NCBI RefSeq assembly: GCF_041647995.1
Contig: NZ_JARRIB010000001.1
Location: 496,001 to 560,000 of the forward strand
From: Pyrococcus kukulkanii
GTDB lineage: Archaea; Methanobacteriota_B; Thermococci; Thermococcales; Thermococcaceae
Length of the DNA: 64,000 nt
Direction: 5' to 3'
This document shows positions 11,004 through 45,860 of the stretch, piece by piece. The notes beneath the pieces were generated by a model that did not search any database, had not been told where the DNA came from, and worked only from the letters and a program-made list of their open reading frames with translations. The position numbers and the translations under genes were made by a program. How positions within the stretch are numbered: position 1 is the stretch's first letter; each line of letters begins with the position of its first letter.

Positions 11004-11080
11004 GCCCGGGGCAACCGCGGGGGATGAGCTGAAGGAGAAGCCCGAGCGATGACTCCCCTTCGCTCCCCCCGGGCACATGG
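11004..11080 (+). ncRNA. H/ACA-like guide RNA with K-turn
   Basis: A GC-rich island in AT-rich surroundings. An 8-bp closing stem GCCCGGGG (11004-11011) pairs with CCCCGGGC (11067-11074) and is followed at once by ACA (11075-11077), the box position expected for H/ACA RNAs. Inside, two unpaired arms (CAACCGC and TTCGCTC) could be the pseudouridylation pocket. The upper stem (GGGG/CCCC) carries GATGA twice and one CTGA, the sequence parts of an L7Ae-binding kink-turn. The TATA box upstream and the T-rich CACTTTTCTTTTCC downstream support transcription on the + strand. The target is not determined. Confidence 0.75.
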
Positions 11081-34913: not shown

Positions 34914-35645
34914 ATGAGAAAAGTTATCCTATTAATACTCACCGGACTCTTAATTACATTCCTCATTGAGCTTACCTATTCCCCCTGCCAAACGAGGTAT
35001 ACAGGAGGCTTCATGGTTCTAGTTCACGACGTTAGCCCTGTGTACACCTCAAACGTTCGGGAGATAGCCGAGCTATTGAAAGATCTCGGCTACCAAAACT
35101 CAACCATGCTTTTTATAATACCGAACCATGCAGGCAACCACCCGATAAGCAAGGATGGAAACTTTACTAAGCTAATACGGGAGCTGGAGAAAGAAGGCTT
35201 TAAGGTTGGAATTCACGGTTACACCCATTCAAGGGATGAGTTCAACTGCAATTCTTCGGTTGCAGAGATTAAAATAGAGGAGGCAATTGAGGAGATGCAC
35301 AAGGCAAACATAACCTTTGAGAGGGTATTCATCCCTCCCCAGTACTCCATATCCCAGGACGCCCTCAAGGTTCTCCTAAAGAACAACTTCACGGTCATCC
35401 TGAAGGATAAAATTTACTATCCAAACGGAAGCTGTGCCAAAATTGCAAATAGGGAGTACACGTGGTACGCAAGTAACTGGAGCCTCGGAATTAGGCTCTT
35501 CATTGCAAAATTAGATTACAGGCTCCACTCAGATAACTTTATGCTCTCAATACATCCAAAGGCCGTGAACCACGGATGCGGAATGGAGTTCTTAAGGAAA
35601 TTCCTTGAGTGGCTAAAGCTTAATGTCCAGAAAGTTAATTCCTAA
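34914..35645 (+). CDS. DUF2334 protein, polysaccharide-deacetylase-like
   Basis: 243 residues with a signal or anchor helix at 5-21 (ILLILTGLLITFLIELTY). Then a NodB-like fold: FMVLVHDVSPVYTSN with the catalytic-type HD, MLFIIPNHAGNHP, GFKVGIHGYTHSRDEF with the H-x-x-x-H metal pair, and FIPPQYSISQDALKVL. Members are outside-facing hydrolases of unknown sugar substrates. The 3' end overlaps the PAP2 gene on the other strand by 33 bp. It sits beside an ABC exporter and a PAP2 phosphatase, which suggests envelope glycan or lipid work. Confidence 0.88.
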   Translation: MRKVILLILTGLLITFLIELTYSPCQTRYTGGFMVLVHDVSPVYTSNVREIAELLKDLGYQNSTMLFIIPNHAGNHPISKDGNFTKLIRELEKEGFKVGIHGYTHSRDEFNCNSSVAEIKIEEAIEEMHKANITFERVFIPPQYSISQDALKVLLKNNFTVILKDKIYYPNGSCAKIANREYTWYASNWSLGIRLFIAKLDYRLHSDNFMLSIHPKAVNHGCGMEFLRKFLEWLKLNVQKVNS

Positions 35646-36212
35646 TTTCCTTACTATTTTCCTGTAAAGCGGAAGCCAAGTGTCCTGGGTTACCTTTACC
35701 ACGTTATAGATCCATGGAGCTAGTAGTAAACTAAAGAGGACATCGCTAAACCAGTGAACGTGGAGGAGGAGCCTCGTAAAAGCAACGCCAATGGCGTATG
35801 CCCATACAATAATCCTAGCCTTTTTCCAGCGATTGGATGAGTACGTAGCTATAATTCCTCCCCTGAATGCGTGTCCAGAAGGGAAGGAAAACCCTCCATA
35901 TCCCCTGGGCCTGGGCTCATTTAGTGCAACCTTTAGGATTCCAACAATTGCCAAGCCCAAAAATGCGGAAAGAAGAAAGACAAGAGTCTCCTTAGAGAGC
36001 TTCCCATACTCCTTAACGTCCAGATAGATGGCAAAGAGGGCAAAGGCGAAAAAGAATAGGTTACCACCCAAGACCGTTAAGATCGTGAGCACCCCGAGAT
36101 TTGGGGAGGGTAATAGAAGGTCAATCCTCTCATTGATTCCCTTCAATAGGCCAAGGACCTGGAGGATAAAAATTAAGGCCAAGAGAAATGAGCTTACCAA
36201 GATTTTCCTCAT
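35613..36212 (-). CDS. PAP2-family phosphatase
   Basis: 199 residues in the form I prefer. The acid phosphatase triad is complete: KVALNEPRPR, PSGHAFRGG and TRLLLHVHWFSD, with five or six membrane helices. It would remove phosphate from a lipid (for example a polyprenyl pyrophosphate or phosphatidate-like lipid) at the membrane. The frame stays open to 36275, but its GTG-ATG there is the C' box of a C/D RNA. ATG 36212 (MRKILVSSFLLALIF), with an AT-rich TATA-like stretch (TTTTTATTTC) about 26 bp upstream, better fits a leaderless start. Confidence 0.85.
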   Translation of the reverse strand: MRKILVSSFLLALIFILQVLGLLKGINERIDLLLPSPNLGVLTILTVLGGNLFFFAFALFAIYLDVKEYGKLSKETLVFLLSAFLGLAIVGILKVALNEPRPRGYGGFSFPSGHAFRGGIIATYSSNRWKKARIIVWAYAIGVAFTRLLLHVHWFSDVLFSLLLAPWIYNVVKVTQDTWLPLYRKIVRKLGINFLDIKL

Positions 36213-36249
36213 GGATGTAAGGGCGTGTGAAGAAATAAAAATGTTTTTG

Positions 36250-36304
36250 AGCTCAGCTAACCCTCTTCTCATCACCGATCAGAGTGGCTAACGGTCATCA
36301 TGGG
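36250..36304 (-). ncRNA. C/D box guide sRNA (minus strand)
   Basis: Reading the minus strand: C box ATGATGA (36295-36301), 12-nt guide CCGTTAGCCACT, D' box CTGA (36279-36282), 3-nt spacer TCG, C' box GTGATGA (36269-36275), 12-nt guide GAAGAGGGTTAG, D box CTGA (36253-36256). Box sequences and spacing are those of archaeal dual-guide methylation RNAs. It overlaps the 5' extension of the PAP2 frame. Targets not determined. Confidence 0.85.
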
Positions 36305-36383
36305 CCAAAGCTAAGTGACCCGCTCCGCCCTGAAGGGCGAGGTTTTCGGAAGAAAAATATAAAATGGGAGAGTTAAAAAGGTT

Positions 36384-36440
36384 GGGGATGATGAGCGTTT
36401 ACCGGTCTGAGCCGTGATGAGATCGGCACTGCCTGACTCA
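36384..36440 (+). ncRNA. C/D box guide sRNA (plus strand)
   Basis: C box GATGATGA (36387-36394), 12-nt guide GCGTTTACCGGT, D' box CTGA (36407-36410), 3-nt spacer GCC, C' box GTGATGA (36414-36420), 12-nt guide GATCGGCACTGC, D box CTGA (36433-36436). A TATA box (AAAATATAAAA, about 36353-36363) lies about 25 bp upstream. The 3' end touches the stop codon of gcvPB on the other strand. Targets not determined. Confidence 0.9.
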
Positions 36441-44738: not shown

Positions 44739-45860
44739 TTAAAGTTCAGGGATGCTAATGGTAACTTTCCTAGTTTCTTCCTCCTCCGAAGTTACAGGGG
44801 TTTCCTCTTGCATAGTTACGTACCTAGAGGTAACACCTGTAACTATTATCATAACCCTAATTGTCTTTTCGAGCTCTGGCTCAAGCTGGATTCCCCAAAT
44901 AACCTGAGCCTTCGGATCTACGTTCCTAGTGACGTACTCGATTATCTGCTGAGCCTCCTCAAGCTTGACATCGGCACCGCTTATGCTAATCAATGCTCCC
45001 TTGGCACCACTTATATCAACATCTAGAAGTGGGCTGTTCAGGGCCTGTTCAGCAGCCTCTAAGGCTCTCTTCTCGCTGTCGCTCTCACCGATGCCAATCA
45101 TTGCAACTCCTCCATCCTTCATGACTGCTCTCACATCGTTGAAGTCGAGGTTAACAAGGCCAGGCTTAGTTATTAGCTCGGTGATTCCCTTAACGGCCTG
45201 CACAAGTATTTCATCTGCAACCTTGAAGGCCATCTGAATTGGTAGCTTGGGGGCGACTTCGAGCAACTTATCGTTGGGAATAACTATCACTGTATCTGAG
45301 TTCTTGGCTAGTCTCTTAAGGCCGTACTCAGCGTTCTTTGCCCTCCTAATACCCTCCATTGTAAACGGCAAGGTAACTACTGAAACCGTTAGAGCCCCCA
45401 TCTTCTTTGCCATCTCGGCTATCACTGGCGCAGCCCCAGTTCCAGTTCCGCCACCAAGGCCGCAGGTGATGAAAACCATATCCGCCCCTTCCAAGGCCTC
45501 TCGGATATCTCTCTCACTTTCTTTAGCTGCTTCCTCACCGATCTTTGGATCGTTACCTGCTCCTAATCCTTTAGTGAGTTCCTTACCAATGAGAATCTTC
45601 TGATGAGCCTTAATCTTTAGAAGATCCTGAGCATCGGTGTTTACGGCTATTATCTTAGCCCCAGTGACGCCAACTTCCATCATTCTATTAACGGTATTGC
45701 CCCCAGCCCCACCAACACCTACGACATAAATTCTAGCCTTAATTTGCTCTACTATCTTTTTAAGCTCCTCATCAACACTTGACTGAGGAACTTGAACTTC
45801 TTGAACCTTATTTTCCTCGTTAGCCACCTTTTCGACAACGTTCTCTACAAGCTTCAGCAT
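44739..45860 (-). CDS. ftsZ: Cell division protein FtsZ
   Basis: 373-residue tubulin-like GTPase forming the division ring. After an N-terminal extension of about 40 residues come [17 protein letters not shown] near 44-60, the tubulin signature [17 protein letters not shown] near 132-148, [19 protein letters not shown], and the T7 synergy loop [13 protein letters not shown] near 235-247. The C-terminal tail ([22 protein letters not shown]) may bind partners. It has a good TATA (AGTTTATATATTTC on the minus strand, near 45917-45930) and heads the run into secE-spt5-rpl operon. Confidence 0.97.

Follow-up and report, generated by a model that had tools for sequence, protein, structure and literature searches.

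The DNA analysed here (the window) is a stretch of 64,000 nucleotides from Pyrococcus kukulkanii, and the locus described in this work holds two divergent C/D box guide RNAs, sR34 and sR12, with a short repeat element between them and a PAP2-family phosphatase gene on the far side of sR34. Its features, in order of window coordinates, are as follows.

35613-36212, minus strand: PAP2-family phosphatase gene, likely start ATG 36212, 199 aa (Pfam PF01569, 1.8e-12; frame comparison)
36233-36241, minus strand: candidate PAP2 promoter TTTTTATTT, conserved in this genome (G000), G005 and G007; role putative
36251-36305, minus strand: sR34 C/D box guide RNA, mature body with approximate ends (Rfam RF01273, and boxes read from the sequence)
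36253-36256, minus strand: sR34 D box, CTGA
36257-36268, minus strand: sR34 D guide, GAAGAGGGTTAG, 12 nt
36269-36275, minus strand: sR34 C' box, GTGATGA, doubling as the GTG-ATG with which the overextended PAP2 frame opens
36279-36282, minus strand: sR34 D' box, CTGA
36283-36294, minus strand: sR34 D' guide, CCGTTAGCCACT, 12 nt
36295-36301, minus strand: sR34 C box, ATGATGA
36315-36358, minus strand: 44-bp insert, a copy of a dispersed hairpin repeat read as an IS605-like mini-element; present in G000 and G007, absent from G005
36326-36339, minus strand: hairpin CGCCCTTCAGGGCG within the insert
36358-36363, no strand assigned: TATA-like box TTTATA, 25 nt from the C box of sR12; read on the minus strand it could stand in for the displaced box and start a longer sR34 precursor
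36373-36378, minus strand: ancestral TATA-like box of sR34, TTTTAA, now displaced (its G005 counterpart lies 28 nt from the C box)
36386-36437, plus strand: sR12 C/D box guide RNA (Rfam RF01147, 57.6 bits, full-length match)

The minus-strand RNA at 36305-36251 is a member of the catalogued sR34 family of ribosome-methylation guides, and is otherwise ordinary. The original prediction had described a C/D guide RNA in which all four boxes are canonical and each of the two guides is 12 nt long, and both lines of evidence agree with it: the sequence displays the complete C/D box layout (C, D', C' and D boxes, 12-nt guides and a short D'-C' spacer, here of 3 nt), while the Rfam search of the window aligned it with positions 1-54 of the 54 in the RF01273 model (58.1 bits, E 2.9e-8, against a curated cut-off of 40 bits). 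Small differences from other sR34 loci lie at the 3' end, where the D box is CTGA (as in 30 of the 92 loci) rather than the CCGA found in 61, and where the 3' flank GCTC is unusual (3/92) and weakens the terminal stem.

Conservation of the boxes in related genomes, on which the original prediction had staked itself, was borne out by a covariance model search of 94 genomes of the order, 92 of which contain sR34; the two genomes lacking a match, G010 and G052, are both incomplete assemblies (77 and 73 percent). Across the 92 aligned loci, the core of the D' guide (CGTTAGCCAC) is unchanged in every one and the core of the D guide (AAGAGGGTTA) is the same in 91-92 loci at each column, with part of this constancy reflecting ascertainment, because the loci were detected with the family model and placed with a guide-based pattern allowing up to three substitutions, both of which favour conserved guides. 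The D'-C' spacer is variable across the same alignment. A second, weaker sR34-like RNA (30-48 bits) is present in some genomes (e.g., G080:C1:1268473-1268527 and G073:C1:794846-794900) and possibly represents a related guide family.

In C/D sRNPs the RNA is bound by L7Ae, Nop5 and fibrillarin, and the target is set by the fifth nucleotide upstream of the D or D' box. The D guide of sR34 forms 10 contiguous Watson-Crick base pairs with positions 2040-2049 of the organism's own 23S rRNA (TAACCCTCTT), longer than any pairing obtained with 120 shuffled guides; against the opposite rRNA strand, used as a control, 7 bp was the maximum. The nucleotide singled out by the rule, C2043, aligns with C1920 of Escherichia coli K-12 rrlB, in helix 69, and is the predicted site of 2'-O-methylation by this guide. 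The target stretch was found in 61 of the 94 genomes, with zero mismatches in all 61; the remaining 33 were unmatched at up to one mismatch, and many of these are fragmented assemblies, with a few rated 99 percent complete (e.g., G001, G015 and G093). A survey of other archaea lists many predicted methylations in helix 69 (PMC4644070).

The rRNA matches that the original prediction had proposed to look for were clear for the D guide and weaker for the D' guide. The latter pairs over 9 bp with 23S positions 2314-2322, giving a predicted target of G2317 (about E. coli G2201), and 11 of 120 shuffled guides paired as long. Of the 9 Pyrococcus genomes, 7 carry the corresponding 23S site, GTGGCTAAC, without change; G011 has ATGGCTAAC in its place and G010 yielded no match. 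Since the pattern for this site proved too specific to Pyrococcus to be searched across the order (8/94), the sites were read directly in 11 other usable stretches, 10 of which (nine from other genera and that of G011) hold ACGGCTAAC or ATGGCTAAC and one of which (G002) holds ACAGCTAAC. Pairing with the D' guide runs to 7-8 bp in 10 of these 11 and is shorter in G002.

Candidates outside the rRNA were also sought for the D' guide. A perfect 10-nt complement of its core was conserved nowhere else in the genomes of the order, and in many of them the only copy listed is sR34 itself; three other loci bearing the complement had no Rfam match. Among tRNAs, 30 loci contained no match to the D' core with up to one mismatch, and the 15 stretches covering the other 16 tRNA genes contained no perfect pairing to either guide, with a single one-mismatch D' match (L180, position 352) and one-mismatch D-guide matches, counted anywhere in the stretch, in L186, L188, L192 and L193. 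Within the window, a perfect complement of the 10-nt D' core lies near the start of an ORF that we take to be ftsZ (about 45818-45827, minus strand); it was set aside as a chance occurrence because the genome holds three copies of the core pattern, that of sR34 included, and four of the reversed control. Taken together, the D' guide probably targets the site near E. coli 2201, with weaker support than the D guide has for helix 69. Its real partner may be another, because the guide is invariant (92/92) while its 23S site varies.

The second RNA, sR12, was absent from the original prediction. It lies ~80 bp from sR34 on the opposite strand, pointing away from it and antisense to the region just beyond the gcvPB stop codon, and its score is well above the Rfam cut-off of 38 bits. 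The D' guide of sR12 pairs over 11 bp with 23S positions 2016-2026 (0 of 120 shuffles as long), with G2020 as the predicted target (E. coli G1897), and the best match of its D guide spans 8 bp, a length equalled by 26 of 120 shuffles. A distance of 23 nt thus separates the strongest sites of the two RNAs (E. coli 1897 and 1920), in the helix 68-69 region. A pattern search placed sR12 beside sR34, in divergent orientation, at 82 of the 92 loci; sR12 was unmatched at G001-G003, G075, G078, G079, G082-G084 and G093. Elsewhere in the window there is also an H/ACA guide RNA, Pab160 (RF02796, 57.6 bits, 11004-11077, plus strand).

The spacer between the two RNAs takes several forms. In 86 of the 92 loci the C box of sR34 is preceded, at 26-31 nt, by a TTTAAA-like box (at least 5 of 6 positions, a level reached by 5.8 percent of random 18-base flanking windows); the exceptions are G000, G007, G004, G006, G008 and G001. 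In this genome no hexamer at promoter distance ahead of that C box agrees with TTTAAA at more than 3 of 6 positions, confirming that, as first noted, no TATA is found where one would be expected. In 61 of the 82 pairs the C boxes are 56-59 bp apart and one shared box, 25-28 nt from both, sits at start distance from each RNA, as a bidirectional TATA should; these comprise all 60 genomes of genus g3 with sR34 plus G011, and being related they are far from independent. In 16 pairs (7 from g4, 7 from g5, G005 and G009) the C boxes are 41-43 bp apart and each RNA has a box of its own, that of sR12 in G005 reaching only 4 of 6. The C boxes of G000 and G007 are 86 bp apart, with the promoter split, and those of G004, G006 and G008 stand head to head only 8 bp apart, the box being deleted, so that there is no room for a promoter between sR12 and sR34.

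Alignment with G005 locates the cause of the split. A 44-bp insert, which had likewise escaped the original prediction, separates sR34 from its ancestral TATA box. No TATA stands in the usual position because this insertion moved box and RNA apart; the box of sR12 was left in place. The insert holds a hairpin that in G007 reads CACCCTTTAGGGTG, altered on both sides of one pair relative to CGCCCTTCAGGGCG, and among the 92 loci such a hairpin occurs within 120 nt upstream of sR34 only in G000 and G007. The 17-mer CGCCCTTCAGGGCGGAG has 15 copies in the genome at up to two mismatches (0 for the reversed control), and 9 of these 15 have in common a left part similar to TTTTTTCTTTTGAAAGCC, which in most cases follows TTAC. 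One copy (C1:468277-468293) comes after a tnpB domain (C1:468038-468235) at a distance of about 40 bp; the left part was not found there. Judged by the familiar features of IS200/IS605-type elements, we read the insert as an IS605-like mini-element: like them it is a hairpin repeat, often following TTAC and ending near GGTCA, with one copy beyond a tnpB domain, while the copy at this locus differs in following TTTAT and in having no transposase gene.

From the flanks of the 92 loci (two of them short, at 113 and 188 bases), gcvPB is found upstream of sR34 in 21, a DUF2334 polysaccharide-deacetylase-like gene (Pfam) downstream in 27, and a PAP2 relative downstream in only 3 (G000, G005 and G007). 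In G004, G006, G008 and G009 a gap of 45-58 nt separates the D' guide from the end of the deacetylase-like match, against about 650 nt in the genomes with PAP2. Given this adjacency and these distances, PAP2 most likely entered between sR34 and the deacetylase-like gene in this subclade, as a latecomer beside a far older sR34; the guide RNA is independent of it. sR34 was found in none of 14 PAP2-related loci within the DNA compared, several of these loci being short.

The relation between sR34 and PAP2 could be closer than this if the protein truly began at the GTG of the C' box, so that the RNA overlapped coding sequence. The longest PAP2 ORF does start there (GTG 36275, 220 aa), its frame is open in G000 and G005, and 5' overlaps between C/D sRNA genes and ORFs exist, amounting to 7 percent of such genes in the survey of Tripp et al. 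2017, as given in section 9 of PMC7994747. The same frame is broken by a 1-nt shift in G007, where the ATG and the remainder are kept, an indel and poor conservation mark the DNA between the sRNA and the ATG, and the candidate promoter falls between the GTG and the ATG; a start at the GTG is accordingly very improbable. The protein likely begins at ATG 36212, 63 nt and 21 residues downstream, and the suggestion that the PAP2 frame had been over-extended by 21 residues is very probably right. The A of TTTTTATTT stands 24 nt before this ATG, a spacing that would fit a PAP2 mRNA with no leader or almost none; leaderless mRNAs make up about 14 percent of the total in Thermococcus kodakarensis (PMC4247193). 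The overlap of sR34 with the PAP2 frame is superficial.

A second way of coupling the two genes, proposed with the original prediction as the explanation of the missing TATA, is a single transcript from whose long PAP2 leader sR34 would be excised. The genes share a strand, no TATA is found directly upstream of sR34, and published surveys describe longer transcripts as a frequent source of C/D sRNAs (PMC7994747, section 9). We nevertheless consider a shared precursor improbable and the proposal unsupported: PAP2 adjoins sR34 in 3 of 92 loci while a TATA-like box precedes the RNA in 86, the promoter-like TTTTTATTT separates sR34 from the ATG in all three PAP2 loci, and the insert already accounts for the absent box. 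Transcription might also enter from the opposite side, by read-through of gcvPB, with no promoter in the spacer at all. This gene ends at 36438 on the same strand as sR34, and a route of this kind must operate in G004, G006 and G008, whose 8-bp spacer is too short to hold a promoter. For the present genome we regard read-through as possible, on the doubtful side, as the AT-rich boxes TTTTAA (36378-36373) and TTTATA (36363-36358) remain and are within reach of a precursor longer by 30-45 nt.

The reading that we favour, and hold to be highly probable as a whole, is that sR34 is a methylation guide paired with sR12, that its TATA box was split off by the insert, that it is now made from a longer precursor, and that PAP2 is expressed separately from ATG 36212. 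Assembled into its sRNP, sR34 would pair through the D guide with helix 69 of 23S rRNA and direct 2'-O-methylation of the equivalent of E. coli C1920. The RNA is one half of an old divergent pair with sR12, which would usually be fired from the short spacer between them, with a single symmetric TATA box serving both RNAs in most of the family. Here the 44-bp hairpin mini-element landed between that box and sR34; sR12 keeps its promoter, and sR34 is probably processed from a precursor that is longer by about 30-45 nt at its 5' end. The precursor would begin upstream, perhaps inside the insert, and be cut back to the C/D body after assembly of the sRNP, with minus-strand starts predicted near 36350 or 36335, 30-45 nt upstream of mature sR34. 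The longer 5' end thus likely runs into the insert and is not shared with PAP2, which is a neighbour on the other side in this subclade only and has a promoter-like element of its own.

Taken by themselves, the overlap and the missing TATA are both unsurprising, because published C/D RNAs often lack a promoter and some overlap ORFs. Most archaeal C/D RNAs are without a promoter of their own and 20 percent have a TATA-like motif within 50 nt (PMC7994747), a minority of the C/D RNAs of Nanoarchaeum are served by individual promoters (PMC3491384), and those of Sulfolobus are said to hijack the promoters of adjacent genes (PMC5539422); furthermore, the flanks of C/D RNAs can be altered without harm to maturation (PMC7994747, section 9). 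What the locus adds is modest in one respect, namely one more member of a catalogued family and a corrected PAP2 start codon. The new and moderately interesting part is the series of promoter states (shared, duplicated, split and lost). It amounts to a natural experiment in which the same conserved guide RNA stands behind a shared promoter, two overlapping ones, one split by a mobile element, or none, and it makes the idea that archaeal C/D RNAs need their boxes rather than their own promoter testable in close relatives. A broader proposal, whose chances we see as evenly poised, is that throughout Thermococcaceae sR34 and sR12 are co-expressed from one symmetric TATA box, a bidirectional promoter with two functional products, which was split by a mobile hairpin in one Pyrococcus branch and deleted in another, the guide RNA surviving in each branch through a shift from initiation at its own start to processing out of a longer transcript. 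In the literature searched, from which most subscription papers were out of reach, we found no description of the sR34-sR12 pair or of a TATA box shared by two functional guide RNAs.

Set against known systems, the RNA shares with RF01273 both guides and all boxes over its full length and departs from it in its split promoter, while sR12 (RF01147) is a separate guide RNA on the other strand whose promoter the insert spared. Like RNAs of the Tripp et al. 2017 survey, as summarised in section 9 of PMC7994747, sR34 abuts an ORF and has no recognisable promoter of its own in this genome; it differs in that the overlap involves only an over-long PAP2 frame and in that the loss of the promoter can be traced to an insertion. 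A parallel to the single-box pairs comes from Pyrococcus furiosus, where one symmetric TATA box fires both ways from starts 49-50 bp apart, the start lying 23 bp from the final conserved base of the box (PMC6640164). By analogy, each RNA of the single-box layout would start about 4 nt ahead of its C box, and the two starts would be about 50 bp apart, as in P. furiosus. The second product there was read as a non-functional antisense RNA (PMC6640164), whereas here both products would be conserved guide RNAs. Finally, the nucleotide predicted for the D guide is the one that the bacterial methyltransferase TlyA modifies, 23S C1920 (2'-O-methyl; PMC5778110). TlyA is a protein-only enzyme, whereas the archaeal modification is predicted to be guided by an RNA; if the prediction is true, RNA-guided and protein-only enzymes meet at one position of helix 69.
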